A stretch of DNA of 48,596 nucleotides from Mycobacterium sp. (GTDB lineage Bacteria; Actinomycetota; Actinomycetes; Mycobacteriales; Mycobacteriaceae), in contig JAGQTU010000001.1 in the NCBI GenBank assembly GCA_020438865.1, forward strand, positions 1 to 48,596, read 5' to 3'. Of the stretch, positions 2,165 through 17,777 are shown piece by piece. The position numbers and the translations under genes are program-made. Each line of letters begins with the position of its first letter. Position 1 is the stretch's first letter. Below the pieces are notes generated by a model that was given only the letters and a program-made list of their open reading frames with translations, searched no databases and was not told the DNA's origin.

Positions 2165-2266
2165 GTCACTCCTGCGGTCATCGGACACTCGGGCGGCCAA
2201 GGCTACTACGCGCACCATCCACCGCGGGTTGCCGGGCACCCCACGACCACGGAACCGACGGAACCG

Positions 2267-2524
2267 CTAGTTCGCCGGCCGGAAATAGGGCTCGACCGTG
2301 CCGCTGAGCTTGATGACCATCGGATTTCCGCGGCGGTCCTTCGCGGTGGGAACCTCAACGCGCACCCAACCCTCGGCCACGTTGTATTCGTAGACATTGT
2401 TCTTCTCGACGCCGTTGAAGCGAACCCCCACGTCGCGACGGAGCGCCTCTTCGTCGTAGAAGGGGCTGCGCGGATCGATGGAGAGGTGATTGGGCGGAAC
2501 GTCTGCGATCTGGTCCTCGGGCAT
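2267..2524 (-). CDS. DUF3297 family protein
   Basis: A small soluble protein of 85 aa from the ATG at 2524; a TTG 15 codons upstream is possible but less likely. The hallmarks of DUF3297 are present in order: HLSIDPRSPFYDEEAL, DVGVRFNG, EGWVRVE, DRRGNPMVIKLSGTVEPYF. The family is short, widespread and of unknown biochemical function. It lies 96 bp downstream of the esterase gene on the same strand and may be either the last gene of that operon or independent. Confidence 0.8.
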   Translation of the reverse strand: MPEDQIADVPPNHLSIDPRSPFYDEEALRRDVGVRFNGVEKNNVYEYNVAEGWVRVEVPTAKDRRGNPMVIKLSGTVEPYFRPAN

Positions 2525-2620
2525 GCTGGCTTTCGCTATTCCTGTGTCAGGTCCTGGTGGGCTCTCCAAGAACCTACGCGACCCGATGGCAGGGGCTCAC
2601 CCCTTGGGCTCAGGTTGTCC

Positions 2621-4060
2621 TCAGCCGTGGGCGGGATACCGGTTCTCCCAGATCGCGAGTTGCTCCGCGCGGTGGTTTCTGACGATCCCGGTCTCGGGCC
2701 CCAACAGCATCGTTGCCCCGCCGGCACCGCGGTAGCGCTCCCAGGGGTCTCCCCCGCGGACGAACTGCAGCCACAGATCTTGAACTGTGCCGGCCATGCG
2801 GTGCGCCGCCTCGTCGTCACCGGCGAGTGCGGGCGCACCGTGCAGGTTGCCGAAGACCAACGCCAGACAGGTGTCGTGACACGCCCCGAGCCCGGCCCGC
2901 GGCGAGGGCCACTGCAGTTCGTAGCGAAACACCGGCTGGCCGCGTTCGGCGTGTGCGCGGACGAACTGCTCGGTCGGCGCGCTGAAGTGGTAGTCCGTCA
3001 CCATCGCACTGGCGACATCACGCAGGCTGTCCCGCCCGGCGCGGTACGCCGCCACCACGGCGTCGGCATCGTGTCCGTCCCCGGCGAGTGCGTGCGCCCT
3101 GTCCCGCACGTACTGCTCGGTGAACACCGCCTCGTCCAGCGCCGCGTCGAAGACCCGCCACTCGTCGCGCGTCGTTCCGGCGAGGATCGGAATCGCCGGC
3201 ATCGCGCGCGTCCGGGCGACCACCAGGGGATGCTCACCGATGACGTCACCATCGATGCACGGATGGAACGGGCCCCGCGGCGGCACGAATCCGCTGTCGA
3301 TACGGCCCTGCGCGGCAAGGATTTCGGCGACATCCGCCTCCGCGGTGCCGGCGAAGGAGCCGTTGGCGATGAACTGCTCGGCCACCGCCCCGGCGGCAGC
3401 CGTGGAGCGGACCCGCTCCAGTCCGCCGCTCTGCAGGATCGCCCGGTCGAAGAGATCACACCCTGCGGCAAGCAGCGCCGCTACCGCGATCGCACCGGAG
3501 GACTGGCCGGCCACCGTGACGGCGCCGGGGTCGCCCCCGAAAGCTCCGATCTCCTCGCGCACCCAGTGCAGCGCCTGCCGCTGGTCACGTGTCGCCAGAT
3601 TGGTGCTGCCCGCCCCGTGCCAACCGGGCGCGTAGAGCGCGCCCAGCGCGCCGAGCCGGAAGTTGATCGTCACCACGACGACGTCACCGCGCTCTGCGAG
3701 GCGCGCACCATCGAGGAGCGGAGCCGATCCGTAACCCTGCGTCTGCCCGCCGCCGTGCAGGAACACCAGCACGGGTCGCCGCGCGGCGTCGGCCGCTGGT
3801 GTCCAGATGTTGAGGGTGAGGCAGTCCTCACTCATCGTCAGGCCGCGCTTGGCGAGCCGCTCGGGCGAGATGTCCTGCGGCGCGATTGCCCCGAACGCCA
3901 TCGCATCGCGGACACCCGCCCAGCTCACGGTCGGCTGCGGCGGGCGCCAACGCAGCTCGCCGGTCGGCGCCGCCGCGTACGGCACACCGCGAAAGACGAC
4001 GCCGTTCCCGCTTGCGTCCCCGCGCAGGGCTCCGTATGAGGTGTGCGCGACCGCGGTCAA
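2621..4060 (-). CDS. Type-B carboxylesterase (para-nitrobenzyl esterase-like)
   Basis: An alpha/beta hydrolase of the COesterase family, 479 aa, which hydrolyses carboxylic esters. Visible landmarks are the FRGVPYAAAP N-terminal block, SEDCLTLNIWTP (about 77-89), the oxyanion HGGG (102-105), and the nucleophile elbow GQSSG with Ser187. The TTG start overlaps the stop of the upstream VOC gene (TTGA), implying translational coupling. It is the last of five overlapping genes (LLM oxidoreductase, sulfotransferase, DUF1214, VOC, esterase), so a role in opening an ester or lactone intermediate is a reasonable inference. No signal peptide is seen, so the enzyme is cytoplasmic. It resembles the mycobacterial Lip family, but I cannot assign a specific Lip name. 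Confidence 0.87.
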   Translation of the reverse strand: MTAVAHTSYGALRGDASGNGVVFRGVPYAAAPTGELRWRPPQPTVSWAGVRDAMAFGAIAPQDISPERLAKRGLTMSEDCLTLNIWTPAADAARRPVLVFLHGGGQTQGYGSAPLLDGARLAERGDVVVVTINFRLGALGALYAPGWHGAGSTNLATRDQRQALHWVREEIGAFGGDPGAVTVAGQSSGAIAVAALLAAGCDLFDRAILQSGGLERVRSTAAAGAVAEQFIANGSFAGTAEADVAEILAAQGRIDSGFVPPRGPFHPCIDGDVIGEHPLVVARTRAMPAIPILAGTTRDEWRVFDAALDEAVFTEQYVRDRAHALAGDGHDADAVVAAYRAGRDSLRDVASAMVTDYHFSAPTEQFVRAHAERGQPVFRYELQWPSPRAGLGACHDTCLALVFGNLHGAPALAGDDEAAHRMAGTVQDLWLQFVRGGDPWERYRGAGGATMLLGPETGIVRNHRAEQLAIWENRYPAHG

Positions 4061-4563
4061 GAGCGCTCCGTCAGGGGGTGGGTCCCGGCCATCTCACCGC
4101 TGAGTATCCGGGCGAGGAAGTCACGGCCCTTGAAGCTCACCACTTCGACCCGAAGCCCGCTGCGCGGGTCACGCAGAAACGCGACGCCGGCCCCGGTGCG
4201 CTCCAACTCCCAGCCGTCGTCCTGCAGCCGGGCGACGTCGTCGCGCCACCGCTGCGCGTAGTAGCCGAAGTGGTGCGGGCCGCCGAGCTTCGGCTCGGCG
4301 AAGATCGAGTCGGCCGCGGCGACCACCTCGATCAACTCCAGGTACGGCGGCCCGGAAGCCGAGAACGCGATCCGTACGCTCTGGTCGTCGGCGGACCCGT
4401 CCGGACGCATGAAGCCGCTACGCATCTCGAACGGCGGCGCCCAGGTGATCTGCATGGCCTTGCCGAGCGCCTGCATCGCGACTGGGAGATCCGGTACGAG
4501 ATGGCCGACGTGATAGACGTTGTCGAAGGCCGATGCGGCGAGCGTCTCGAGTTTCGGGTCCAT
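4057..4563 (-). CDS. VOC (glyoxalase/bleomycin-resistance fold) protein
   Basis: A 168-aa protein. The ATG at 4563 follows the stop of the DUF1214 gene by one base (TGACATG) and has AGGAT at good spacing. The N-terminal FDNVYHVGHLVPDLPVAM is the typical first beta-alpha unit of VOC proteins, and PHHFGYYA plus the C-terminal LRVEVVSF supply further fold elements. VOC enzymes use a divalent metal for isomerisation, epimerisation, ring cleavage or lyase chemistry; the substrate is not evident. Coupling to the gene on either side suggests it acts on an intermediate of the same pathway. Confidence 0.75.
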   Translation of the reverse strand: MDPKLETLAASAFDNVYHVGHLVPDLPVAMQALGKAMQITWAPPFEMRSGFMRPDGSADDQSVRIAFSASGPPYLELIEVVAAADSIFAEPKLGGPHHFGYYAQRWRDDVARLQDDGWELERTGAGVAFLRDPRSGLRVEVVSFKGRDFLARILSGEMAGTHPLTERS

Positions 4564-4564
4564 G

Positions 4565-5809
4565 TCAGATCCTGTATCTACGGCGGATGGCATCGAAGCG
4601 TGCGTGGAGTTGCGCGGCCCGTTCGGCGGGCGTGACGTGACGGGTGTCGGGCGGCAGGACGGTGTCGACGTCGGCGAGTGGGACCACCCTGGTGGTCACC
4701 TCGGGTAGCTCCCGACTTCCGATGATGCGCATGGTCAGGTAGCCCTCGGCGAAACGTTGGGTGTCGATCCAGTTGTGCACGCCGGGGTCGTCGTGGGCCA
4801 TCACCATCCGCACGCGCCCGTCGGCGTCGATCGCCGTTCGGCTCGGCGTGTGGCTCACCGGCCGGTACAGGTAGTCCATGCTGTTCCAGAACGCGCCCAT
4901 GTTGGTGAGCATCCAGAACGCCCCGTCGTCGGCGAACTCGACGATCAGCGCGTCGTCCGCCGCGAGACGCCATGGCATGGTGACGATGAGCCGGCCGCGG
5001 CGTGCATCGCGTTGCTCGGCCTCGCCCGAGAATCGCGCGCCGGGAAACACATTGGGCTCGGGTTCACCGAAGAGCGAGCCGATCAGCAGTTCGCGGTCGG
5101 GCCAGTCCGTCATCACCCCGGTGAGAAAGTCGCCGGCCCAGCGCATCGACGCGATGACATCCTGCGGCTCGGGCACGGGGCGGGGCGTGTCCATGTCGAT
5201 GCGCTCGATGCTGAACTGCGCCGACCGCTCCTCCCAGGAGTCGAAACCCTGTCGCATGAAGATCTTTCGCGAACCCGGCGTGGTCGGCAGCCAGTTCGGT
5301 TCCCGCCGCTCCCCGCCGACGTAGAGGACGAAGCTGCCGTCGGATTCGGTCACCAGGTCGTCGCCGGTGATGTTCGCCTCGGGGGTGTCGCCGAAGGGCT
5401 CATGCAGATTCGGGTGATCGGCGCCGTAGTACACGTCGGTGTCGGGACGCGGCCCCTGCACCGTGAAGTTGATGAACCGCGCCGTGCCCCGATCCCCCGC
5501 GATTCGGTACGTCGACGCACCGTCGATCCACGCCTGCAGGTAGACGAAGTCGGCGTTGTCGCCGCCGAGCTTGCGGCTCGGACCGCAGAACGGGTGGATC
5601 ATCGGAAACCGGGTGTCCCTGGTCTCCAGCGCGAGTTCGTAGGCCTGCCCCAGGTTTTGGGTCAGGTAGCGGAAGGCGTCGGCTCGCTGCAGGGCATTCG
5701 CCGGCGAGGTGTCCTTGAAGGCGAGGTCGCCGGCCGCCTTGAGCCGGTCGCAGAATTCGCGCCACGCTGCGCGCAGCGCGTGGTCGTCCCCGGTGTCCCC
5801 GAAGGCCAT
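4565..5809 (-). CDS. DUF1214 domain protein
   Basis: A protein of 414 aa with the C-terminal DUF1214 region: NWLPTTPGSRKIFMRQGF motif (about 160-180) and the final fold segment around YLYRPVSHTPSRTAI. The N-terminus is a helical segment (REFCDRLKAAGDLAF). No signal peptide is evident. DUF1214 proteins have no assigned reaction, though in actinobacteria they recur beside sulfotransferases and steroid- or lipid-type catabolic genes (recollection, not computed). The ATG overlaps the sulfotransferase stop as ATGA, so the two are translationally coupled. Confidence 0.8.
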   Translation of the reverse strand: MAFGDTGDDHALRAAWREFCDRLKAAGDLAFKDTSPANALQRADAFRYLTQNLGQAYELALETRDTRFPMIHPFCGPSRKLGGDNADFVYLQAWIDGASTYRIAGDRGTARFINFTVQGPRPDTDVYYGADHPNLHEPFGDTPEANITGDDLVTESDGSFVLYVGGERREPNWLPTTPGSRKIFMRQGFDSWEERSAQFSIERIDMDTPRPVPEPQDVIASMRWAGDFLTGVMTDWPDRELLIGSLFGEPEPNVFPGARFSGEAEQRDARRGRLIVTMPWRLAADDALIVEFADDGAFWMLTNMGAFWNSMDYLYRPVSHTPSRTAIDADGRVRMVMAHDDPGVHNWIDTQRFAEGYLTMRIIGSRELPEVTTRVVPLADVDTVLPPDTRHVTPAERAAQLHARFDAIRRRYRI

Positions 5810-6960
5810 CAGTGCCTCGTCTCGATGTCGATGCCGAACCGCTCGCGATAGGCGGCGAACTCCTGGTGCAGTCGCTCAACCGGCACGGGCAGGACGTCCG
5901 TGGAGTAGGTGAACTTGCCGTATCGATCGCTGCGGTTGGTGGCGAGGTAGTCGCGCATCGCCTTCTCGGTCTCGGCCGTGAAGGGCAGCCCGGCGAAGTC
6001 GTAGAAGCCGCCGATCGTCACGACCGGGTCCGCGACGAAGTCGCGGTAGCGGACGTGGTGGATCCGCGGGTCGTCCACCAAGGGGTCGCTGAGGTAGGCG
6101 TGGAAGTTGGCCCGCGACCCCTCGATCGTGTCCTTGGCGTACTGGGTCCAGTCCAGTGTGCCGGCGAGGCTCTCGTTGATCTGGCCGAAAGCCACGATCT
6201 GCGAGGCGAGTACCTGCACCGGGTCGCGGTGCACCCAGACGATGCGGGCATCGGGGTAGGTGTGGAAGAGCGCTCGCAGGCGCCGGCCGTGAAAGCCCTT
6301 GAGCACCCACCGTTTCGGCGCGCGGGTGTGCTGGATGTGCTGCAGCATCATGCGGTGCAGGGTGTACTGCGCGTGGTGGTCCTGCGGGAAGTTCTGGATC
6401 GTCAGCGGCACTCGCCACCAGGCGCTCGGGTTCATGGCGCGGAAGTCGAAGGCCCATGTGCGTTCACACTCGGGCAGCCCGTCGCCGAGCAGATCGTTGT
6501 ACGGGTGGCTGACGATCCACGGCGGGATGCGGTCGAGGATCTCGCGCCAGTCGGCATCGGCCCGGGAGCGGCGCGGGTCGTCGACACCGGCCGGACCGGG
6601 TGGCGGTGAGGGATACATGACCTCCCAGAACCGCAAGGCCCGCGAGTCCTCGTCCTCGGCGAGCAAGGCGTGCAACAGCGTGGTGCCCGACCGCGGCTCC
6701 CCGGTGGCGAACAGCGGGGCGGTGATCCGTTCTGCAGCGAGGGGCAGGCGCGTGCGGTCGGCGATGAAATGCAGTCGGCTGCTGAGCAATCCGCCGATCG
6801 TGCTTGCCGCCGCCCGTGCGCCTTCCCGGTCGAGTTCTACGCTGTTCACCCTGTCGACGACCAGCGCCACCCGCTCGGGCAGGGTGTCGTCCCCGAAGTC
6901 GGCCAGCCCCGTTGTCCACTGCGCTTCGGCGACGAGGACGTCCGCGTCGAGGGCCGTCAC
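5809..6960 (-). CDS. Sulfotransferase family protein (Sulfotransfer_3-like)
   Basis: A cytoplasmic 383-aa protein with the PAPS-binding P-loop-like motif ATGEPRSGTTLLHALL (about 85-100) and a downstream segment WVHRDPVQVLASQ corresponding to the 3'-phosphate-binding region. This is the aryl/lipid-type mycobacterial sulfotransferase family. Predicted chemistry is transfer of sulfonate from PAPS to an alcohol; many mycobacterial members have no known substrate, and some may not be active transferases. The GTG start overlaps the stop of the LLM oxidoreductase gene (GTGA). It is flanked by catabolic-looking genes rather than by a polyketide or sulfolipid locus. Confidence 0.85.
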   Translation of the reverse strand: MTALDADVLVAEAQWTTGLADFGDDTLPERVALVVDRVNSVELDREGARAAASTIGGLLSSRLHFIADRTRLPLAAERITAPLFATGEPRSGTTLLHALLAEDEDSRALRFWEVMYPSPPPGPAGVDDPRRSRADADWREILDRIPPWIVSHPYNDLLGDGLPECERTWAFDFRAMNPSAWWRVPLTIQNFPQDHHAQYTLHRMMLQHIQHTRAPKRWVLKGFHGRRLRALFHTYPDARIVWVHRDPVQVLASQIVAFGQINESLAGTLDWTQYAKDTIEGSRANFHAYLSDPLVDDPRIHHVRYRDFVADPVVTIGGFYDFAGLPFTAETEKAMRDYLATNRSDRYGKFTYSTDVLPVPVERLHQEFAAYRERFGIDIETRH

Positions 6961-8081
6961 GATGTGCTTCCGGTGAGCTGCAGCAGCGCGTCCTCGACCT
7001 GGCGCACCTTGCGCGCCGACTCCGTGGCGTAGGCCTGCCCGGCCATTCCGCTGTAGTCGAGCACCGACACCACTCGGGCACCCGCCTCGCCGAAGGCGGC
7101 CACCTGCTCGGCGACCTGCTTCGGAGTGCCATGCGGGACAACGGACAGGATCGCGGCCGGGTCCACGTCGTCGAACAGCCGGAGCAGTCTGTCGCGAGTC
7201 AGCACGCGCGGGTCGATGTCCTGAATGCCACGCCAGCGCTCACCCATCGGATGGACGTGACCGGTCGATCGCAGTGCGTCGGCCGTCAGTTGCAGCACCA
7301 GCGACTTCACCAGGGGACGTTGCAGGATCGCGTGCAGTTCATCGGGTTCGCCGATGAGGCACACCACCATCTTTGCCGGTGTGATCGCCCGCGGGTCGCG
7401 CCCGGCCCGTTCGGCGGCCTTGCGGATGCTGGCCAGCTGGCCGGCGTAGGTCTCGGGGCCGGCGCTCCCCGTCGGCCACCAGCCGTCCCCGAGTTCACCG
7501 ACCAGCCGCAGCATGCGCGGGCCGTTGGCCCCGACCCAGATCGGTGGCGGCCCGGAGGGGTGCAGTTCGGCGTCCAACCGAGCGTGTTCACACGTGTAGA
7601 ACTCGCCGTCGAAGGTGATCGGTCCCTCCGTGCTCCACAGCAGCCGGATCAGGCGGACGGCCTCGGCGAAGCGGCTCACCCTGTGCCGGTCGTCGAAACC
7701 GTAGGGCGCCAGGTTTTCCCGCTCGCCGGCACCCACTCCGAGGATGAACCGGCCACCCGAGAGGTGACTGAGGGTGAGTGCCGACTGGGCCAGCATCACC
7801 GGATGGCGGCGCACCGTGTCGAGAACGCTGGTGGCGAGCCGAGTGTGTGTCGTGCGGGCGGCGACGGCGCCGGCGAGGGTCAGGGCGTCGAGGTAGCGGT
7901 GCGGCGACGCGGACGCCTCGGCGAGGTCGGTGAACTCGGGCGTCCAGATCGAGTCCGGCCAGAAGCTCACGAGGTGGTCGGGCATCCAGATGGAGTGATA
8001 GCGCCCGTCGTCCAGGGCGTCCAGCCCGCCGAGGTCGAGCGGCAGCGTCGTCCGGAGGAACGCCGCCAGCGCCAAGGGCAT
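6957..8081 (-). CDS. LLM-class (luciferase-like) F420-dependent oxidoreductase
   Basis: A 374-aa TIM-barrel flavin/F420 oxidoreductase. Diagnostic segments are YHSIWMPDHL near the N-terminus, SALTLSHLSGGRFILGVGAGE in the middle (conserved GRxxLGxGxG), and the PPIWVGANGPRMLRLVGELGDGWWP motif. Mycobacterial members mostly use F420, some use FMN; the sequence alone does not settle this. I use the ATG at 8081 rather than the TTG three codons upstream. It is the first enzyme of the overlapping operon and lies 71 bp downstream of a CGNR regulator on the same strand, so it may share its transcript. Confidence 0.85.
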   Translation of the reverse strand: MPLALAAFLRTTLPLDLGGLDALDDGRYHSIWMPDHLVSFWPDSIWTPEFTDLAEASASPHRYLDALTLAGAVAARTTHTRLATSVLDTVRRHPVMLAQSALTLSHLSGGRFILGVGAGERENLAPYGFDDRHRVSRFAEAVRLIRLLWSTEGPITFDGEFYTCEHARLDAELHPSGPPPIWVGANGPRMLRLVGELGDGWWPTGSAGPETYAGQLASIRKAAERAGRDPRAITPAKMVVCLIGEPDELHAILQRPLVKSLVLQLTADALRSTGHVHPMGERWRGIQDIDPRVLTRDRLLRLFDDVDPAAILSVVPHGTPKQVAEQVAAFGEAGARVVSVLDYSGMAGQAYATESARKVRQVEDALLQLTGSTS

Positions 8082-8152
8082 GCAACGCAAGCTACCGACT
8101 CGAGGCGGTCATGTCACCAGAATGCTGTGCGATCGCTCAGCATGGCGCCTCA

Positions 8153-8749
8153 TCAGTCGGCGCGGTGGCGGCGATAGTGCCGCGCCACCCGGGTCCGGTT
8201 GGCGCAGATGTTCTGAGTGCAGAACTTCCGGCGGGCATCGGAGGCCACGAACAGCATGCTGCAGGCCGGGTTGTGGCACCGGCGCAGGCGGCCGAGCGCG
8301 GGCCCCACCAGCAGGTCGATGAGGCTGTCGGCGACCACGGCAAGGGCGATGTCGTGGGGCCGCCCGGTGGGGGCGTGCCATTCGGTGAGCGCGCCCCAGC
8401 CCGACGGGGATGGCACGAGTCGTCGCGTCGCGGCGGCCCGGGACGCGACGTCGTTGACCAGGTCGACGGCGGCCGCACTCGGTCGGGCCGCGGTCAGCTG
8501 CGCGTCGAGGATGTCCCTGGCGGCATCGCGCAACGCGATGGTGGGTGCCAGGGGTGGCGGCGCCGCTCCCGTCGGCAAGCGGTCCCGTTGCAGCTCCCAC
8601 CAGTTCCGGCAGGCCGCCTCATCGGCCAGGAGATCGGCGTGCGGGTCTTGGACCGTGATGATGGTGTCGGCCAGGTCCACCGCCAGCGGCTCCCCCGCGA
8701 CGAAGAAGCCGGCCGCCTGGGCGTGCCTGAGCCGCGACTCGGTATCCAC
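8153..8749 (-). CDS. CGNR zinc-finger (ABATE-domain) transcriptional regulator
   Basis: A 198-aa protein starting with GTG. The C-terminus holds the CGNR-type zinc finger, with cysteines at about 158, 163, 177 and 182 (CHNPAC, RRKFC, CANR) and a basic tail RTRVARHYRR. The motif reads CANR in place of the canonical CGNR. The preceding region matches the ABATE domain (stress-induced ligand-binding type). It is divergent from the DinB-like gene; the 89-bp gap contains two identical spaced inverted repeats that are good candidate operators. It may control both the divergent pair and the LLM-sulfotransferase operon downstream of itself. Confidence 0.85.
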   Translation of the reverse strand: MDTESRLRHAQAAGFFVAGEPLAVDLADTIITVQDPHADLLADEAACRNWWELQRDRLPTGAAPPPLAPTIALRDAARDILDAQLTAARPSAAAVDLVNDVASRAAATRRLVPSPSGWGALTEWHAPTGRPHDIALAVVADSLIDLLVGPALGRLRRCHNPACSMLFVASDARRKFCTQNICANRTRVARHYRRHRAD

Positions 8750-8752
8750 GGT

Positions 8753-8831
8753 CTAACGATAACAGGAACTTGACAACGTTAGGTCGACGCGCGCATGATG
8801 ACTAACGTCAATGTCTATAAACAAACGTTAG
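8753..8831. promoter_or_regulatory. Twin spaced inverted repeats CTAACG-N18-CGTTAG in divergent promoter
   Basis: CTAACG at 8753-8758 pairs with CGTTAG at 8777-8782, and CTAACG at 8802-8807 pairs with CGTTAG at 8826-8831. Both have exactly 18 bases between arms, and the repeats start 49 bp apart. The second arms extend to AACGTTAGG. A TTGACA hexamer (8770-8775) overlaps the first repeat. The downstream arm of the second repeat abuts the ribosome-binding sequence of the gene at 8839. This is the expected geometry for two dimer operators of the adjacent CGNR regulator; that assignment is inference. Confidence 0.6.
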
Positions 8832-8838
8832 GAAGCCC

Positions 8839-9408
8839 GTGACCGCTCTCGCCCTCCTCCAGCGCGCCGATCGCCGCCTCATCGGCCTGACCGGCGGTCT
8901 CGACACCGCCGACCTGGACCGCCCCAGCCCGTGCGCGGGATGGAACGTCCGGTCCCTGCTCAGCCACACCGTCGCCTCGATCGACGCCTTCGCCGCCGCC
9001 ATCGATGGGCAGGGCGGGCCCACCGAGGAGGAACTCTTCAGCGGCGCCGACATCCTCGGCACTGCCCCGCTCGCGGTCACCGAGCGTTCGATCGCACGGT
9101 CGCATCGGGCGTGGTCGACGATCACCGACTGGCAGTCGCCGGTCGCGACCGTCCTCGGCGAGATGCCCGCCGAACAGGCCATCGGGATCATCACCTACTC
9201 CACGCTGGTGCACAGCTGGGATCTCGCGGTCGCCCTCGACCGGCCTGTCGAGTTCGACGATGACGAGGCCGGGCTGGCGGAAGCCGTCGGTGCACAACTC
9301 GTCCCCGCCCTGCGCCCGCAGAACCTCTTCGGCCCGGCCGTCGAGGCGGGTGTGACGGCTACCCCGACTCAACGAGTCGTCGCCTTCGCGGGTCGGCATC
9401 CGCTATGA
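8839..9408 (+). CDS. TIGR03086-type DinB/mycothiol maleylpyruvate isomerase-fold protein
   Basis: A 189-aa four-helix DinB-like protein. PCAGWNVRSLLSHTVA is the conserved helix carrying the first metal-ligand His, and the YSTLVHSWDLAVAL segment carries the later His and Asp typical of the family. Proteins of this group bind a divalent metal and are often mycothiol-linked transferases or isomerases; the reaction here is unknown. The GTG start is preceded by AGGAAG with a short spacer. The stop overlaps the next gene as ATGA, so it is coupled to the PNPOx-like protein. Confidence 0.8.
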   Translation: MTALALLQRADRRLIGLTGGLDTADLDRPSPCAGWNVRSLLSHTVASIDAFAAAIDGQGGPTEEELFSGADILGTAPLAVTERSIARSHRAWSTITDWQSPVATVLGEMPAEQAIGIITYSTLVHSWDLAVALDRPVEFDDDEAGLAEAVGAQLVPALRPQNLFGPAVEAGVTATPTQRVVAFAGRHPL

Positions 9409-10289
9409 TGAGGGTCGAAAACCGGCTCGCCGCTGTGGGATTCCACAGCGGCGAGCTCGCCGTTCAGGAGCAGGCCGGTGTGAGCGGTCAGGCTGGACGG
9501 CTTTCGGCGATGGTGGGGCGCGGCCAACTCCGCTCGGGGACAGCGGATTTCCTGGGCAGTGCTCGGCTGGCGGTCCTGACCGCCCATGACCCCGACGGCA
9601 CGGTGTGGAGTTCGCCGCTCTTCGGAGAACCGGGTTTCCTCTCGGCCGTCGACTCGGGCACGCTGCACATCGACGGCAGCCTTCCCGAAGCGGACCCGCT
9701 GAGTGACATGCCCGGCGGTCAGCTTGCCGGCGTGATCGTCATCGACTTCGCCACCCGGCGTCGCTGGCGCATCAACGGCGTGGTGACCACCAGCCCCGAC
9801 GGGGGAACCGATCTCGAGGTCGACCAGTCGTACGGCAACTGCCCGAAGTACATCACGATACGGACGATCGACACACCGACCGGCTCGCTTGGGCCGCAAC
9901 GGGATCCGGTCTTCGCCGGAGACAGCCTGCGCGCCGAGGACCGTCGCCTGATCCAACGCGCCGACACGTTCTTCCTGGGCACGACGCACCCGACGTCGGG
10001 GGCCGACACCTCCCACCGGGGTGGCCCGGCAGGTTTCGTGACCGCCGTGCACGACCGGCTGTGGTTCCCCGACTATGCCGGCAACAACCTGTTCAACAGC
10101 CTCGGCAACATCGCCGTCGACCCCAGCGCGGCTCTGCTCTTCATCGACTTCGACACGGGGACAACACTTCAGCTGTCCGGCACAGCAGCCCTCACTTGGG
10201 ATGACAGCGCGCCCGCCGACGAGGTTCACACCGGCCGCGGGGTGAGCTTCACGCCCGAGCGTGTGGTGGTGTCCGGAGCGGGGCGGTAG
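9405..10289 (+). CDS. Pyridoxamine 5'-phosphate oxidase-family (split-barrel FMN-binding) protein
   Basis: A 294-aa protein with a PNPOx-like split barrel in two parts: SARLAVLTAHDPDGTVWSSP near the start, and a second unit, RADTFFLGTTHPTSGADTSHRGG followed by GNNLFNSLGNIAVDPSAALL. The latter matches the flavin-nucleotide-binding subgroup of PNPOx-related proteins. The ATG overlaps the preceding stop. It is not the vitamin B6 enzyme pdxH, since the length and motifs differ; a flavin- or F420-dependent reductase role is possible but unproven. Confidence 0.78.
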   Translation: MMRVENRLAAVGFHSGELAVQEQAGVSGQAGRLSAMVGRGQLRSGTADFLGSARLAVLTAHDPDGTVWSSPLFGEPGFLSAVDSGTLHIDGSLPEADPLSDMPGGQLAGVIVIDFATRRRWRINGVVTTSPDGGTDLEVDQSYGNCPKYITIRTIDTPTGSLGPQRDPVFAGDSLRAEDRRLIQRADTFFLGTTHPTSGADTSHRGGPAGFVTAVHDRLWFPDYAGNNLFNSLGNIAVDPSAALLFIDFDTGTTLQLSGTAALTWDDSAPADEVHTGRGVSFTPERVVVSGAGR

Positions 10290-10513
10290 CTTAGCGCTCG
10301 CGCTCGACCGTAAGCGTCTTTCCAACTGCCTTCGGGCCGTTCGATCGCGATGGCTGGTATCTGTCTGACATGTTCATCCAGTTCGCTGTCGCTGATGCGT
10401 CGGACGCGAATCCTAGCCACTAACAGGCACTTCGGGGCCATTCCTGGCCTGCAGTTGGCGTCGTAGAGGCCATAACCGTCGTCAGGGTTGTCGTCGAAAT
10501 TGTCGTCGGATCG
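10290..10513. other. Intergenic region with decaying reading frames
   Basis: No convincing gene is present. A minus-strand frame at 10226-10441 contains a protein-like stretch (ISDSELDEHVRQIP) but has no ribosome-binding site and overlaps the previous gene, so it may be a relic. Between 10475 and 10510 the word TTGTCGTCG recurs. This is the left edge of the accessory patch next to tRNA-Ala. Confidence 0.4.
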
Positions 10514-10750
10514 TCAGGCGGCGGGGTGATCGCCGTGGTCGAGCTTCTCGGCGATCCAGAACTTGATGAGCGACTGGCGAGTGACGCCGAGACGGGTTGC
10601 CTCACGGTCGAGCTCGGCGATCATCCACGCCGGGAAGTCCACATTCACCCGCCGGTGCTCCTCACCGGGGCGCCGCGCCCGAGCGGTATCCAAGGCAGCC
10701 GCCATGTCCTCGCCGGCGTCGAATCGCTCGTCGAATTCCTTAGCCTTCAT
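10514..10750 (-). CDS. brnA: BrnA-type antitoxin (ribbon-helix-helix)
   Basis: A 78-aa protein from the ATG at 10750. The N-terminus MKAKEFDERFDAGEDM is the toxin-binding part, and RRVNVDFPAWMIAELDREA then GVTRQSLIKFWIAEKL is the RHH DNA-binding fold as in BrnA. In the family the antitoxin follows brnT, sequesters the BrnT RNase and represses the operon. Here the upstream brnT is broken by two frameshifts while brnA is intact. The start codon overlaps the relic brnT stop (ATGAAGGCTAA), preserving the original operon layout. Confidence 0.82.
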   Translation of the reverse strand: MKAKEFDERFDAGEDMAAALDTARARRPGEEHRRVNVDFPAWMIAELDREATRLGVTRQSLIKFWIAEKLDHGDHPAA

Positions 10751-10997
10751 AAAGTGCCACCTCACTCTGTCTAGACACGCGCACTGAGATGATCCGGACG
10801 TAATCATCTCGATAAGTCACCACCGCCGACCAAAACCCGGCCGCCGATCTGACCGATCACCATCCACCGTGGCTCATCCGTCGTCCGGGCCGGAACCTCG
10901 ATACGGTGCGCATCACGCCACAACGTCTGCGCCTCGGTGAAGCCGATACCGTGTTTGAGCAGTTTGCCTCGCTCTTGGCGGGATCGAACTCGAACTC
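10740..10997 (-). pseudogene. brnT: brnT toxin pseudogene (two compensating frameshifts)
   Basis: Three frames read in turn give a complete BrnT-like protein: EFEFDPAKSEAN (frame 1), then LLKHGIGFTEAQTLWRDAHR through EPRWMVIGQIGGRV (frame 2), then WSAVVTYRDDYVRIISVRVS ending LYEG (frame 1 again). The first shift is a one-base deletion after the EAN codons (near 10963). The second is an extra T in a T-run near 10836. The net change is zero, so the original stop (10740-10742) still overlaps brnA. No in-frame ATG/GTG/TTG remains between the upstream stop and the first domain residues. The RNase toxin is therefore predicted inactive unless these are sequencing errors. Confidence 0.8.
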
Positions 10998-10998
10998 A

Positions 10999-11019
10999 GG
11001 TATGTATAGAAATCATACC
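10999..11019. promoter_or_regulatory. Inverted repeat GGTATG-N9-CATACC, probable brnTA operator
   Basis: A perfect 6-bp inverted repeat with a 9-bp AT-rich centre sits immediately upstream of the brnT relic. BrnA-family antitoxins autoregulate through inverted repeats at the brnTA promoter, so this is the likely operator. The centre, on the minus strand, contains TATACAT, which could serve as a -10 element. Confidence 0.55.
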
Positions 11020-11111
11020 AAAAATACTCATTTGGTTGGGGCGCCCTCAGACTTCGGTGTGGGGACGCCACATCGCGGAAACACAGCCGGCACCGAGGTC
11101 GAAACTGTCGC

Positions 11112-11205
11112 CAAACTGCCCCAATCGGTCCCCGAAGCAAAAACCCGAAGCCATTGGCTTCGGGTTTTCTCCCTGGAGCTAAACCCCTGACCCCCACACT
11201 GCCAG
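11112..11205. repeat. Left copy of tRNA-Ala 3'-end direct repeat (candidate attachment site)
   Basis: These 94 bp repeat 12684-12787 with only two substitutions and one 10-bp deletion (GGGGACTCGA, part of the T-arm, is missing after position 11182). The copy includes the perfect terminator hairpin (11140-11168) and the tRNA 3' end up to the anticodon-loop letters CTGCCAG. It cannot encode a functional tRNA. This is the arrangement left when an element integrates in a tRNA gene and leaves the displaced 3' end at its far boundary. Confidence 0.75.
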
Positions 11206-11291
11206 GAACGAGCGCTGACCCTGACCAGGCAGGATTGTCGTCGAGCCAGCCGGCCAAGGACAGGCGACGCCGGGGGTTGGACCCGGCAAAC

Positions 11292-11361
11292 CCTTGAAAT
11301 CTTCAGGGGCAATTTCAAGGTTGATGGCTTAACCTTGAAATTACACCGAAGGATTTCAAGG
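11292..11361. promoter_or_regulatory. Twin palindromes CCTTGAAAT-N11-ATTTCAAGG upstream of fic
   Basis: CCTTGAAAT at 11292-11300 faces ATTTCAAGG at 11312-11320. The same pair recurs at 11333-11341 and 11353-11361. Both have exactly 11 bases between arms, and 12 bases separate the two units. The last arm ends 11 bases before the fic ATG and overlaps the only plausible ribosome-binding purines (AAGG). Since Fic carries a C-terminal winged helix, autorepression through these sites is the obvious inference. Confidence 0.65.
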
Positions 11362-11372
11362 TTGGGCATGAG

Positions 11373-12548
11373 ATGGACGTTGACAAGCTTCGCGCGAGCC
11401 CTGTCGGGCAGCTGGTGCCCATTTCGGGTTATGACCCACGTTTCGGCGAAGAGTATGACTGCCTCGCCTACGTACCCGATCCCCTTTCGGGCGATCTCGA
11501 CCTGGGTAGCGGAACGTACGCGACTGTTATCGACGCCGCTGCCGCAATGGCGCGAGCCGACCAGGCAGCGTCCCTGCTTCCCAATCCTGGACTACTGGCT
11601 CGACCGGCGACGCGGCGCGAAGCCGTCAGCACCTCGGCACTGGAAGGCACCTACGCCGCCCTCTCCGACGTCTTCGAAGCGGACTTCCTCGACGCAGACG
11701 AAATGTCCAGCTCCGTCAGCGAGGTTCGCAACTACGTAACGGCCGCCGAACGGGCCTATGAATTGATCGGCCAGGGGCAACCAATCTCCATCAGAATGCT
11801 CGAGGATCTACAGCGCGAACTCTTGCGAGGAACGCCCAGCGATGGCACCCAGGCAGGCAGCGTCAGAACCACACAGGTGTTCATCGGGGTCGGCAATCGA
11901 CGCGTCGCCTCGGCCCGCTTTATCCCTCCACCGCCTGACCATCGCCTACTCGATGGACTGCGCGCGTGGGAGGAGTGGACCCGGGGGCCAAGCACAGTGC
12001 CGACGATCGTCCGAGTGGCCGCCGCGCACTATCAATTCGAGGCATTGCACCCCTTCCACGACGGCAACGGCCGCCTCGGCCGGCTGGTGATGGCGCTGCA
12101 ACTGATGATTGCTGGGGAGTTGCGCTATCCGGTGCTCAACATCTCGCCCTGGCTCGAACAGCACCGCGCCGAATACCAAGACGGGCTGTTGCGCGTCTCC
12201 CAGACCGGCCAGTGGGACCAGTGGGTGTCCTTCATCGCCGCAGCCATCCATGCCGAAGCGCTCGACGTGATCGCACGAGTCGACAGACTCCTCGTACTTC
12301 GCGACAGTTTCCGCCAGGCCCTCCGAGGATCCAAGGGGGTCTCTCTGCGGATAGCCGATGACCTGATCGGCTATCCGATGATCACAGCCACCCTGGCAGC
12401 GTCGCTCTACCGAGTCTCATATCAGGCAGCGAACTCCGCGATTGCCAAGCTGGTCGACAAAGGCATACTCCGGCAACGCACCTCGGGCCGCTACGACCGC
12501 ATCTTTCAGTGCGACAGCGTGTTAGCAGCCTTGGAATACAGCGCCTAG
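11373..12548 (+). CDS. Fic family protein (predicted AMP-transferase) with C-terminal winged helix
   Basis: 391 aa. The catalytic motif HPFHDGNGRLGR (226-237) matches the canonical HxFx(D/E)GNGRxxR of AMPylating Fic proteins, with catalytic His226. An N-terminal inhibitory motif TSALEG (87-92) fits (S/T)xxxE(G/N), placing it in the class with an intramolecular inhibitory helix. The flap region follows GSVRTTQVFIG. Residues about 335-385 form a winged helix (TLAASLYRVSYQAANSAI, LVDKGILRQRT), giving a SoFic-like architecture. It is the only gene between the two tRNA-Ala repeats. The function of such enzymes is modification of a host target with AMP; the target is unknown, and no separate antitoxin gene is visible. 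Confidence 0.9.
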   Translation: MDVDKLRASPVGQLVPISGYDPRFGEEYDCLAYVPDPLSGDLDLGSGTYATVIDAAAAMARADQAASLLPNPGLLARPATRREAVSTSALEGTYAALSDVFEADFLDADEMSSSVSEVRNYVTAAERAYELIGQGQPISIRMLEDLQRELLRGTPSDGTQAGSVRTTQVFIGVGNRRVASARFIPPPPDHRLLDGLRAWEEWTRGPSTVPTIVRVAAAHYQFEALHPFHDGNGRLGRLVMALQLMIAGELRYPVLNISPWLEQHRAEYQDGLLRVSQTGQWDQWVSFIAAAIHAEALDVIARVDRLLVLRDSFRQALRGSKGVSLRIADDLIGYPMITATLAASLYRVSYQAANSAIAKLVDKGILRQRTSGRYDRIFQCDSVLAALEYSA

Positions 12549-12683
12549 ACATGCCCAGCCGACGCTTGCGACCTTTCGCTCTCGATTGTCGGCAGCCTTC
12601 GTTCGCCGTTCCCGAGGCCACCTGCCGACCCGATGCGCACCACACGAGCAGTGTGGGGCACAGAGTCGTCAAACTGTCGTCGT

Positions 12684-12787
12684 CAAACTGCCCCAATCGG
12701 TCCCGGAAGCAAAAACCCGAAGCCATTGGCTTCGGGTTTTCTCCGTGGAGCTAAGGGGACTCGAACCCCTGACCCCCACACTGCCAG
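12684..12787. repeat. Right copy of tRNA-Ala 3'-end direct repeat (candidate attachment site)
   Basis: This 104-bp copy contains the functional tRNA-Ala 3' part from the anticodon loop to the acceptor end, the terminator hairpin, and about 25 bp beyond it to CAAACTGCCCC. Similarity to the left copy starts a little earlier still (GTCGAAACTGTCG / GTCGTCAAACTGTCG). Repeat identity extending well past the tRNA allows either a long att core or a segmental duplication. Confidence 0.75.
12712..12740 (-). terminator. Rho-independent terminator of tRNA-Ala
   Basis: AAAACCCGAAGCC (12712-12724), loop ATT, GGCTTCGGGTTTT (12728-12740): a perfect 13-bp stem. Read on the minus strand it starts 6 bases after the tRNA 3' end and finishes in TTTT. 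An identical hairpin lies at 11140-11168 in the duplicated copy. Confidence 0.85.
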
Positions 12788-12818
12788 TGTGGTGCGCTAC
12801 CAGCTGCGCCATAGCCCC
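12746..12818 (-). tRNA. tRNA-Ala (anticodon GGC)
   Basis: The 73-nt minus-strand sequence folds as a complete cloverleaf. The acceptor GGGGCTA pairs with TAGCTCC (one G-T), the D-arm is GCGC...GCGC, and the anticodon stem CCACA/TGTGG encloses loop CTGGCAG with anticodon GGC. The T-arm is AGGGG-TTCGAGT-CCCCT, and the discriminator is A. CCA is not encoded. The gene is the apparent integration target for the Fic islet downstream of its 3' end. Confidence 0.95.
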
Positions 12819-12832
12819 AGGTGTGCCCATCG

Positions 12833-12861
12833 AAGTTACACCACCGCGAGGCACGCCTCAA
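12833..12861 (-). promoter_or_regulatory. Predicted promoter of tRNA-Ala
   Basis: On the minus strand, TTGAGG (12861-12856) and TAACTT (12838-12833) are separated by exactly 17 bases. The -10 box ends about 15 bases before the mature tRNA 5' end. Further upstream, a 10-bp inverted repeat GAGCGACACC/GGTGTCGCTC (12910-12919, 12948-12957) lies between this promoter and the transporter stop. It may terminate the transporter transcript. Confidence 0.5.
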
Positions 12862-12977
12862 AACCGCTGGCCACCGGCATCCCACGCGGCAGTGCTCCTG
12901 CCCGGCTTCGAGCGACACCCGACGGTCAAGTCCGGCATCGACAAGCAGGTGTCGCTCAGAGGCGGGCACAACGGGTG

Positions 12978-14239
12978 TCAGGGCAACTCTCCGGCCGCCT
13001 CCGGGCCCAGCGGCCGGGCGGGCGTGTGCTCCAGCGGCTCGCTGTCCCGGGTCTCCGGGGCGAACATCCAGCCCACCGCCGCCACCACCAGAATCAGCCC
13101 GCTGAGCCCGAACGCCCACCCGAACGAGACGTGCTGGGCGATCTCCCCGACACCCAACGACCCGACGATCGACCCCAGGTCCGACATCATCTGGAACGTC
13201 GCGACCGCCGTGCCGCCGCGCGCCTTGCTGCCGATGATGTCGGCGACCGCCGCCTGCTGCGGTGAGGTGAAGATACCCGAGGCCGCACCGGCCACCACCG
13301 CGCCGAGCAGGAACAGCGGCACCGAGTTCGCCAGGCCGACCACCGCCGTCGACACCCCCGCCACCGCGAGCCCGATGATCATCAGCGGTCGCCGCCCGGT
13401 CCGGTCCGACAGCCGCCCGGACGGGATCACGGCGAGCACGTTGCCGGCGGCGAAGGTGGCCAGCGCCAGGCCGGCCATCCGCGGCCCGCGATGCAGCGAC
13501 TCGGTGACGAACAGTGGCACCAGCGCGATCCGCAGCCCGAACGCCGACCACCCGGTGGCGAAGTTCGACAGCAGCGCCGCGCGGTAGGCGCGGTGACGCA
13601 GCGCCACACCCACCGTGACGGTCAGCTCGCTCTCCTCGGCGGGTGCGGCCAGCGTCGAGTGCCGCAAGCTGATGAACACCACCGCGGCGGCCACCAACAG
13701 CGCGGCCCCGTAGATCAGGAACGGCGCGTTCAGCCCCAGCCCGGCGGTGAGGCTGCCCAGCACCGGCCCGGCGACCGAGCCGATGAGAAACGCGCTGGAG
13801 AACATGCCGGCGACCTTGCCGCGCGCATCGTGCGGGCTGATCCGGATCATCAGGCCCAGCGCGGAGACGAAGAACATCGTCGAGCCGATGCCACCCAGCG
13901 ACCGGAACAGCAGCAGCTGCCAATAGGTATGGGCGAACGCGCAGGCCGCCGTCGATACCGCCACGATGAGCAGGCCGCTGACATAGATGCGCCGCTCCCC
14001 CAGCCGCTGCACCAGCAGGCCGCTGACCGGTGCGAAGCACAGCCGGGCGAGGGCGAACAGCGTGATCACGAAGGTCGCCGCGCTGATGCTCACGCCGAAG
14101 TGGCGGGCATAGGCCGGCAGCACCGGCGACACCACGCCGTAGCCGAGTGCGATGACGACGTTGGCCGCGATCAGGACCCAGACTTCGCGCGGCAGGCGCG
14201 CGGGCGCCTCCGACGAACAGTCATCCTCCGCGACGGAAC

Positions 14240-15874: not shown

Positions 15875-15949
15875 GGCGCAATTCTGCCCCGCGGCGGGCG
15901 ATACTTTCTCCTTGTTGCCTGTGATCACCCACGGTTAAGGGGGACGCCG

Positions 15950-16348
15950 TTGTTCGGCCATGACAACCGGGAGTTGGCGGCCGTTTTCGCCGGCGGCGCG
16001 GTGGGGACCGCCGCCCGGGCCGGGCTGGCGAGCGTCCTGGTGTCGGACCCGTCGCGCTGGCCGTGGGCGACGTTCATCGTGAACATCGTGGGGGCGTTTC
16101 TGCTCGGCTACTTCACCACCCGCCTGCTCGAGCGGCTGCCGCTGTCCAGCTACCGGCGCCCGATGCTGGGCACGGGCCTGTGCGGCGGGCTGACGACCTT
16201 CTCCACGATGCAGGTCGAGACGCTGAAGATGATCGAGGCCCACCACTACGGGCTGGCCGCCGGCTACACCGTGGCCAGCATCGCCGCCGGCCTGGTGGCG
16301 GTGTACGCGGCGACGGTGCTGGTGCGCCGGGTCAGGATTCGCGCATGA
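15950..16348 (+). CDS. crcB: Fluoride channel subunit CrcB (Fluc), first copy
   Basis: A 132-aa four-helix membrane protein exporting fluoride. Family motifs are visible: the [12 protein letters not shown]-terminal helix, [14 protein letters not shown], and [15 protein letters not shown] with the conserved TTFST Phe-box. The TTG start at 15950 is the only usable start; AAGGGGG lies about 7 bases upstream, and an in-frame stop (TAA, 15936-15938) lies just before. Actinobacterial Fluc channels are often heterodimers of two genes, and the second follows with an ATGA overlap. Confidence 0.92.
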
Positions 16349-16710
16349 ACGTCGCCGTGTGGGCCGGGGTGTTCCTGATCGGCGGCCTCGGTTCGGTGGC
16401 GCGGTTCATGGTCGACCGGGCCGTCGCGCGCCGCGCCGCGCGCTCGTTCCCGTTCGGCACCCTGACCGTCAACATCAGCGGCGCGGTGCTGCTCGGGTTC
16501 ATCACCGGGCTCACGCTCAGCCACCAGGTGGCACTGCTGGTCGGTACCGCGTTCGTCGGCGCCTACACCACCTTCTCCACCTGGATGCTGGAGACCCAGC
16601 GGCTCACTGAGGAGCGCCAGATCCTGCCCGCGCTGGCCAACCTAGTGGTCAGCGTCGTTCTCGGTGTCGCCGCCGCGGTGGCCGGCCAGTCGATCGCCGG
16701 CCTGCTATGA
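16345..16710 (+). CDS. crcB: Fluoride channel subunit CrcB (Fluc), second copy
   Basis: 121 aa with the same fold: [28 protein letters not shown] (containing the conserved Asn), and [17 protein letters not shown]. It overlaps the first crcB by four bases and the following DUF190 gene by four bases. Two tandem, diverged CrcB subunits assemble as an antiparallel heterodimer in organisms with paired genes. Together with the DUF190 gene it forms a three-gene translationally coupled operon. Confidence 0.92.
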
Positions 16711-17777
16711 GTGACGCCTACCTCAAGCTGACCGCGTACTTCGGCGAACGTCAGCGCACCGGCAAGCGGTTCGTCGCCGAGGCGATGCTGGACCTATTCG
16801 CCGAGCGTCAGGTCGCCACCAGCGTGATGCTGCGCGGTATCGCCAGTTTCGGGCTGAGCAGGATCGTCCGCAGCGACCAGTCGCTCACGCTCTCCGAGGA
16901 CCCGCCGGTCGCCGTCGCCGCCGTCGACACCGAGGCCGTCATCACCGCCCTGCTGGACGACGCCGTCGCCATGACCACCCAGGGCCTGCTCACCCTGGAG
17001 CGGGCGCGGCTGGTGACCGACCCGGTATCGACCCCGCTGCCCGACGGCGACGCCGTCAAACTCACCGTCTACGTGGGCCGGCGGCACCGGGTCGACGGCG
17101 CACCGGCCTTCTACGCGGTGTGCGACCTGCTGCACCGCCACCACTTCGACGGCGCATCGGCGCTACTCGCGGTGGACGGCACCGCGCACGGCGAACGCCG
17201 GCGCGCGCACTTCTTCGCCCGCAACGTCGACGTGCCGATGATGATCATCGCGGTCGGCAGCACCGCGCAGGTACGCGGCGTGCTGCCCGGGCTGACCGAG
17301 ATGCTGGGCGAGCCGCTGGCCACCGTCGAACGGGTGCAGGTGTGCAAACGCGACGGGGAGCTGCTGGCCCGCCCACCGGTGCTGCCCGCCCTCGACGCCG
17401 ACGGCCGTCAGGTGCGCCAGAAGCTGATGATCTTCACCTCCGAGGCCACCCGCCACGACGGAGCACCGGTCCACCGGGCCCTGGTCCGGCGGCTGCTGGA
17501 GTCCGGCACGGCAAGCGGTGCGACGGTGCTGCGCGGTATCTGGGGCTTCCACGGCGACCATAAACCACACGGGGACAAGCTGATTCAGTTCGGCCGTCAG
17601 GTGCCGGTGATCTCGATCGTCGTCGACACCCCGGACCGCATCGCGCGCAGCTTCGACATCGTCGACCAGGTGACGGGCGGCCACGGGCTGGTGACCTGCG
17701 AGATGGTGCCCGCGCTGCTGGTGCTGGACGGCGGGCGCCGCGAGGGCTCCACCGACCTGGCCGACTACCGCTACTGA
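16707..17777 (+). CDS. DUF190 family protein with three DUF190 units
   Basis: A 356-aa cytoplasmic protein in which the DUF190 ferredoxin-like unit appears three times, at about residues 4-105 (LKLTAYFGERQRTGKRFVAE), 117-220 (VKLTVYVGRRHRVDGAPAFY) and 235-340 (QKLMIFTSEATRHDGAPVHR). Each has the A-x-x-L-RGI-x-G/HG core, though the middle one is more diverged. DUF190 genes commonly sit beside crcB, which suggests a role in fluoride response, but no biochemical function is known to me. The gene is overlapped at its end (7 bp) by the convergent cupin gene. Confidence 0.88.
   Translation: MSDAYLKLTAYFGERQRTGKRFVAEAMLDLFAERQVATSVMLRGIASFGLSRIVRSDQSLTLSEDPPVAVAAVDTEAVITALLDDAVAMTTQGLLTLERARLVTDPVSTPLPDGDAVKLTVYVGRRHRVDGAPAFYAVCDLLHRHHFDGASALLAVDGTAHGERRRAHFFARNVDVPMMIIAVGSTAQVRGVLPGLTEMLGEPLATVERVQVCKRDGELLARPPVLPALDADGRQVRQKLMIFTSEATRHDGAPVHRALVRRLLESGTASGATVLRGIWGFHGDHKPHGDKLIQFGRQVPVISIVVDTPDRIARSFDIVDQVTGGHGLVTCEMVPALLVLDGGRREGSTDLADYRY

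Follow-up and report, generated by a model that had tools for sequence, protein, structure and literature searches.

A fic islet behind tRNA-Ala(GGC) in Mycobacterium: a probable integrase-less cassette in a stack of defence modules

The DNA analysed here (the window; 48,596 nt of Mycobacterium sp., NCBI GenBank assembly GCA_020438865.1, contig JAGQTU010000001.1, positions 1 to 48,596, forward strand) carries a fic gene between two repeats of the 3′ part of a tRNA-Ala(GGC) gene. This islet is quite probably a cassette of the cis-mobilizable element (CIME) type, moved by the integrase of another element, and defence cassettes stack behind tRNA-Ala(GGC). Three strata lie behind the one tRNA in the window: the fic cassette, a BrnTA toxin-antitoxin cassette with a broken toxin gene, and the remnant of a DUF4143 cassette (Table 1). 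On the proposed direction of growth, the DUF4143 remnant is the oldest stratum, BrnTA the next and fic the youngest. A preliminary description of the sequence had recognised the fic islet, and its account holds for that islet, while the tandem stack behind it, the arm repeats and the wider damage at the distal attachment (att) site had been overlooked.

The repeats cover the 3′ half of the tRNA, its terminator and further downstream DNA, and fic is the sole clear gene between them. The left and the right copy are 96% identical over 76 bp without gaps, followed by a 10-bp deletion in the left copy and then the remaining tRNA 3′ half; the gapped alignment reaches 88% identity (E value 6.2e-35). 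Repeat alignment, ARAGORN, and open reading frame (ORF) and domain calls thus agree with the near-identical direct repeats around a single fic gene that had been described, and the loss of 10 bp of the T-arm from the left copy is borne out as well. The lengths given earlier (94 and 104 bp) are too short, since the copies measure 99 and 109 bp. The proximal att site is whole, and the damage to the distal one goes beyond the 10 bp missing from its core: one of three arm repeats is left, while related cassettes keep both attL and attR. Because the distal att site is damaged, the fic cassette of the window is probably no longer mobile, but fixed. No tyrosine-integrase ORF was found in the window (ORFs of at least 80 residues, home-made integrase hidden Markov model (HMM), E 1e-3), as the earlier remark that no recombinase is encoded inside the islet had it.

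Table 1. Features of the tRNA-Ala(GGC) locus in the window
Feature	Position	Strand	Basis or remark
tRNA-Ala(GGC), intact target gene	12745..12818	-	ARAGORN
tRNA-proximal att of fic cassette	12679..12787	-	repeat comparison
Parts of the proximal att	core (43 bp) 12745-12787; terminator hairpin 12712-12740; P′-side arm repeats (TGACGAC) ~12675-12685		
fic, 391 aa, intact ORF, SoFic-like, Fic_N and Fic domains	11373..12548	+	ORF list, domain search
Palindromic CCTTGAAAT/ATTTCAAGG repeats upstream of fic	11292..11361	not assigned	also seen upstream of the related fic genes compared
Lone surviving arm repeat, distal end of fic cassette	11236..11243	-	intact relatives have three
Distal core/terminator copy, 10 bp of T-arm gone	11107..11205	-	doubles as P′ side of the next (BrnTA) cassette
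Second cassette, BrnT/BrnA toxin-antitoxin	10473..11106	-	alignment to L040, L235, L236, L238
brnT, frameshifted, pieces in two frames	10769..11010	-	comparison by eye with BrnT of L040
brnA antitoxin ORF, intact	10514..10807	-	NF047399, 1.3e-35
Three arm repeats, 12-bp period, distal end of BrnTA cassette, no core after them	10477..10508	-	
Start of AAA_14/DUF4143 cassette, remnant	10302..10401	-	78% DNA identity to L039

In order to compare the locus among relatives, as had been proposed, genomes of the genus were searched with a tRNA/MFS (major facilitator superfamily) query, which gave some match in 148 of 148, a few of them weak. Sixty tRNA-Ala(GGC) sites were fetched, namely the best matches and others with usable contigs (loci carry L numbers, genomes G numbers); 59 are usable, as L172 stops at the tRNA, and L040, L046 and L180 have less than 5 kb downstream. 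At 11 of the 59 the tRNA 3′ part is repeated downstream (L037, L039, L040, L152, L153, L160, L163, L165, L169, L184, L186), so the repeat of the window is not a matter of chance. Five of these 11 intervals are shorter than 2.5 kb and hold no integrase ORF, and four of the five carry toxin-antitoxin or candidate defence cargo: an AAA_14/DUF4143 gene (PADLOC PDC-S01) in L039, BrnTA in L040, a SoFic-like protein different from that of the window in L152, and an AbiEii-like gene with a partner in L169. The fifth, L153, has a 28-bp repeat of 93% identity around EamA-like and LysR-like genes (by eye), and this repeat is probably due to chance or old. An integrase lies just beyond the distal repeat in L040, and in fragments in L152.

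Relatives also show the empty site for fic. L040 (G032) aligns to 10473-11205 and 12665-13337 of the window side by side, without fic, and in L237, L238 and L239 BrnTA likewise adjoins the tRNA without an intervening fic, so that the BrnTA cassette sits directly at the tRNA in four relatives (G032, G193, G105, G252). On the tRNA side of BrnTA we found fic in the window, another Fic in G181 (L235) and an AAA_14/DUF4143 gene in G208 (L236). Thus fic with both repeats is not fixed everywhere at this locus, and the mobility reading stands. The suggestion that the repeats are attL and attR of a minimal cargo element is supported by these empty sites, by other cargo between the same repeats and by arm repeats at fixed spacing in related cassettes.

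Some further observations concern single loci. In L160 (G034) a second whole tRNA-Ala(GGC) lies downstream of the first, at 3657. L037 contains a 10.2-kb integrase-less interval with the same att ends (615-10809, tRNA sense) and genes that by eye resemble an arsenic set. L162 has an inner piece of the integrase described below for G004 (residues 76-139, 81%) at a distance of about 600-800 bp on the downstream side of its tRNA-Ala(GGC), another decayed element.

In one subfamily of the cassettes, arm repeats define the geometry of the attP site. Inside the distal core of L037, L039, L040, L163 and L169, whose cargo is unrelated, there are two to three direct TGACGACA-like repeats 12 bp apart, and inside the proximal core one or two further arm repeats. 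The arm triple (at most 1 mismatch) occurs in 92 of 396 genus genomes, some of these matches resembling plain CGACGACA coding repeats, and a reversed control pattern occurs in 2. We took 39 stretches around triple matches, picked by eye for likeness to the canonical triple, together with the tRNA half of one element. Among the 43 arm triples in the 39 chosen loci, 36 have the start of a tRNA core at an offset of 85-125, 34 of them at 104-106, compared with 63 of 8000 random positions for the 85-125 offset, and 7 have no core by the test used. At least 36 of the 43 core bases match in 22 of the 36 cores, the remaining ones being partial. Since 23 cores belong to tRNA-Ala(GGC) and 13 to tRNA-Arg(ACG), the arm set serves two tRNAs. 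The same arms at a fixed distance from the core with unrelated cargo indicate an attP rather than a random duplication, and this signature (arm triple, 104-106 bp, tRNA core) is a searchable handle on small integrase-less cassettes that annotation easily misses.

Searching with the BrnTA DNA of the window led to tandem arrays. L251 contains DUF4143-A, DUF4143-B, MazEF and ParDE (the last without its core); L236 contains DUF4143-B, BrnTA and DUF4143-A, with the tRNA outside the fetched stretch; L235 contains a third Fic and BrnTA, and ARAGORN finds no whole tRNA in the fetched stretch; L246 contains AbiE genes (with an ORF resembling a serine recombinase by eye), an integrase stub and MazEF. 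No integrase was found in L235, L236, L251 and L253 with the tyrosine-integrase HMM, in which intI itself is not modelled. Generally, the integrase-less cassettes are often 0.8-2.4 kb long, single or in tandem, and bounded by full or partial copies of the 43-bp core.

In 55 sequences there are 33 core-to-core intervals, 25 of which have the arm triple at the distal core (at most 4 mismatches), many having been fetched for it. Cargo was assigned by tblastn with family representatives, themselves assigned by Pfam or PADLOC. Among the 20 intervals of at most 2.5 kb, 16 lack an integrase gene and carry cargo of the toxin-antitoxin or candidate defence kind (Fic 3, DUF4143 6, BrnTA 4, MazEF 2, AbiE-like 1), which is not an unbiased rate because the set was partly found by BrnTA and arm-pattern searches. 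In the BrnTA interval of L235 only residues 1-67 of the 87 of BrnT match. Three small intervals have no matched cargo: L253, L315 and one of L246 (825 bp, with the integrase stub). As a rough control, 10 other proteins of the window gave just two weak partial PADLOC matches. The representative proteins gave no tblastn match in the larger intervals L037, L163, L287, L300, L302, L313, L316 and L317. Ahead of its arm triple, the last of the 20 small intervals, a 1.7-kb unit at tRNA-Ala(GGC) in L291 (7408-9141; G377), carries both an integrase gene and part of an AbiEii-like gene; it is possibly a minimal integrase-bearing cassette.

A possible source of the integrase carries the same attP. An element of about 23.4 kb in G004 encodes an integrase, RepSA (4.6e-133), an FtsK-type Tra, and helix-turn-helix, NUDIX and HD proteins, and at its end stand the arm repeats and core described above; by its predicted gene content it is a pSAM2-type actinomycete integrative and conjugative element (AICE). 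The AICE gene set (int, rep and FtsK-type tra) is present in this element, and the islet holds fic alone. The G004 integrase is identical in L043 (G136) and L045 (G053) and 95% identical in L177 (G039), and there, too, RepSA is placed between the arm triple and the tRNA. Moreover, C-terminal stubs of this integrase (58-83% identity) were found at most about 450 bp away from the proximal core of L152, L246, L305 and L309, which is fossil evidence for the loss of the integrase from AICE relatives among the cassettes. The preliminary description had left three origins open, of which a remnant of a larger island and a satellite moved in trans both fit these four intervals; the third, a duplication, leaves unrelated cargo with the same ends unexplained. 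L285 (857-1975) offers a further case of defence-type cargo by the att site, since an ABC-3C CTD6/Mrr-like gene separates the integrase of the 23.4-kb AICE from the tRNA.

Cassettes and hosts do not always diverge together. BrnTA of L238 and L239 is 75.3% identical while the host side is 84.8% (2267 bp), BrnTA of L040 and L239 is 91.1% against 77.4% (only 305 bp of host side), and DUF4143-B of L251 and L296 is 87.2% against 77.8%. Cassette order also differs between genomes. Taken together, the discordant pairs and the varying order suggest that cassettes are exchanged, in part at least, independently of their hosts.

From these data the following route may be proposed. The cargo gene would lie between two att sites of a tyrosine-integrase system aimed at the 3′ end of tRNA-Ala(GGC), brought in when an integrase recombined the 3′ half of the tRNA site-specifically with an attP made of three P arms, the core and a P′ arm. 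This integrase would come from a different element, most plausibly an AICE of the pSAM2 type that has the same attP, or from an integrase-bearing neighbour. Each insertion would rebuild the tRNA and shift the older cassettes outward, giving rise to stacks, and some cassettes may be AICE relatives stripped of int, rep and tra that retained their ends and a toxin-antitoxin or defence gene. We infer excision, the supply of integrase in trans and the direction of growth from sequence.

The Fic protein was also followed at other tRNAs. A Fic match at 1e-30 occurs in 49 of 396 genus genomes, and 41 loci were examined, the window and 40 of the 54 other matches listed. In 12 of the 41, fic has a tRNA on one side and a repeat of the 3′ part of this tRNA on the other: Ala(GGC) in the window, Ala(TGC) in L096 and L104, Thr in L108, Gly in L102 and L109, Arg in L105, L112 and L125, Tyr in L110, Pro in L091 and Val in L113 (32 bp). 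L107 was left out of this count, as its tRNA copy sits between the tRNA and fic. Furthermore, L093 has a degenerate tRNA copy (score 38, shuffle maximum 25), a tRNA-Pro core lies about 250 bp from fic in L088, L089, L090, L095, L097 and L098 (by eye), and in L087, L094, L100, L101, L111 and L126 fic is at most 500 bp from a tRNA 3′ end, with no copy found. The four shortest islets with clear copies (the window, L096, L104 and L108; 1.5-1.7 kb) contain essentially fic alone, and an integrase match lies inside the islands of L091, L109, L110 and L113, with a weak one in L105. The repeats inside the islet ends differ by tRNA (by eye), so a single integrase for all fic islets was rejected and fic seems to ride several integrase systems. 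The only case of close sharing, the tRNA-Pro element beside fic in L088, L089 and L090 (6000 bp aligned, fic 100% identical, outer flanks unrelated), is, on this alignment, a recent transfer. The Fic tree is mostly unresolved, with 3 of 13 inner branches starred.

Adjacency to a tRNA was rejected as a general property of the Fic family: 0 of 20 order-wide loci (34-50% identity, two from the genus) have a tRNA in their flanks of about 1.5 kb, compared with 11 of the 30 genus loci listed, among them the window. In Gordonia, fic is near tRNA-Ser(CGA) or tRNA-Pro(CGG) in 3 of 3 loci. In one of them, L192 (~4689-6300), tRNA-Pro(CGG) is the neighbour of fic, which has a terminator repeat at either side; the distal copy lacks the tRNA half (by eye).

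Several observations weigh against the proposed trans-moved cassette. The fic cassette of the window has neither a full arm triple nor an integrase stub, and only its relatives indicate its route; in L246 and L309 the intervals with a stub have partial cores at their borders (19-27 nt matched); and RepSA, found in 9 of 19 genomes queried, was not found in the draft genome of the window. Among the 11 surveyed sites with a repeat, TGACGACA arms were not seen at the distal end of L152, L153, L165, L184 and L186, and several integrases therefore use tRNA-Ala(GGC). Some cassettes agree with their hosts (BrnTA of L235 and L238, 78.6/78.8%, and of L235 and L239, 76.6/76.7%; MazEF of L251 and L246, 88.2/90.3%), and no recent spread of a fic-only islet was seen, as the DNA of fic varies by 23-31% from one tRNA site to another inside the clade of 78-82%. 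It is a serious possibility, somewhat below an even chance, that the islet is a dead relic, in which a larger element was inserted once, all but fic was deleted, and the islet never moved as a small unit. Such a history would share the deletion origin with the trans-moved cassette and differ on the mobility of the small unit. The damaged distal att site, the integrase stubs in four related intervals and a 13.4-kb tRNA-Pro island with integrase and fic at its distal end (L091) all agree with it. However, small cassettes recur in differing order and position in several genomes, some discordant with the host, and pure relics should not shuffle.

It is improbable that the islet arose when the tRNA 3′ end and terminator were duplicated in tandem on the spot and homologous recombination placed fic between the copies. 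The copies of the window are alike well past the core and into the terminator, and the terminator repeat of the Gordonia locus L192 flanks fic in a similar way, but two cassettes with the same P′ side could explain the likeness of the terminators, and a duplication does not account for unrelated cargo with the same arms at a fixed core distance in many genomes. It is very improbable that fic is carried by temperate phages using the tRNA as attB, the islets being prophage remnants. Although the M. abscessus prophages prophiGD05-1 and prophiGD12-2 and the Tsukamurella phage TPA4 share 36 bp of the core, the likeness of phage and plasmid records to the attP is confined to 36-47 bp in its core part, and the arms-plus-core pattern has no exact match in viral contigs. 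The Fic matches in 16 phage records include no mycobacteriophage, have 23-38% identity and never cover 80% of the query, and fic as mycobacteriophage cargo found no support. Phages with this cargo or this attP were not found in phage, plasmid and viral collections (phage structural genes of the window were not searched for).

The best PADLOC model for the Fic of the window is SoFic (1.9e-85) and its best PDB relatives are SoFic structures (7e-27), while its NCBIfam SoFic score of 134 bits is far under the model cut-off of 550. It contains the strings HPFHDGNGRLGR and TSALEG, which we take to be the active-site and the inhibitory motif, respectively; TSALEG aligns with SSEIEN of a SoFic-type structure. 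The protein is thus probably a self-inhibited AMPylase in anti-phage defence, as judged from these matches. The CCTTGAAAT/ATTTCAAGG palindromes upstream are a probable autoregulatory operator of fic. The likeness to the SoFic defence system (PMC12249575; here and below, statements refer to parts of the cited papers) lies in the best PADLOC and PDB relatives. In that system a small antitoxin gene is placed downstream of SoFic (PMC12249575), whereas only about 130 bp separate the window fic from the repeat and no such gene was seen there.

Known systems share parts of this arrangement. CIMEs and site-specific accretion have been described for integrative and conjugative elements of Streptococcus (PMC5704250), and the cassettes resemble them in being att-flanked, without integration or transfer genes, in tandem with integrase-bearing elements, and perhaps in arising by deletion followed by accretion; in the islet itself the HMM found no integrase ORF and fic is the sole clear gene. 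They differ in that a large number of them measure only 0.8-2.4 kb and hold a single toxin-antitoxin or defence module, are stacked as many as four deep and share an exact attP geometry, in mycobacteria and with a tie to AICEs. Repeats of the 3′ end of an RNA gene likewise bound the tandem islands known at ssrA in Dehalococcoides, where 15 islands without an integration module were called possible cis-mobilizable elements by the authors (PMC3146451), but those involve a serine recombinase, a 20-bp repeat, and reductive-dehalogenase and other cargo. The G004 element shares int, RepSA and an FtsK-like Tra with pSAM2-type AICEs (PMC3218068). In Frankia two AICEs in tandem at one tRNA-Lys were excised singly and together, and all but one of the Mycobacterium AICEs then known used serine recombinases (PMC3218068); few AICEs have been reported in Mycobacteriaceae (PMC8190616). 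The cassettes here, unlike pSAM2-type AICEs, are without int, rep and tra.

Integron gene cassettes form arrays of mostly single modules with shared recombination sites, often toxin-antitoxin genes, with the integrase acting in trans. The arrays of L251, L236, L235 and L246 resemble them in their tandem cassettes with a common recombination site, but here a phage-like attP with a tRNA core and arms replaces attC, the anchor is a tRNA gene, and the integrase lies outside the platform. The chance is nearly even, and the proposal tentative, that mycobacteria possess an integron-like system, with a tRNA anchor, minimal attP-plus-gene units, AICE or other integrases in trans, and a toxin-antitoxin and defence stock shuffled between species, the newest next to the tRNA. 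The locus shows a tRNA gene as a platform on which mycobacteria collect modules for defence and toxin-antitoxin systems, and trans-mobilisation by AICEs becomes directly testable. As far as we have seen in the open-licence PMC literature, arrays of cassettes with one defence module each and a shared attP, stacked behind a tRNA gene of mycobacteria, are apparently new.

Elsewhere in the window (15900-17777), two adjacent small membrane-like ORFs are followed by a 356-aa ORF, which together presumably resemble a CrcB/DUF190 fluoride set.
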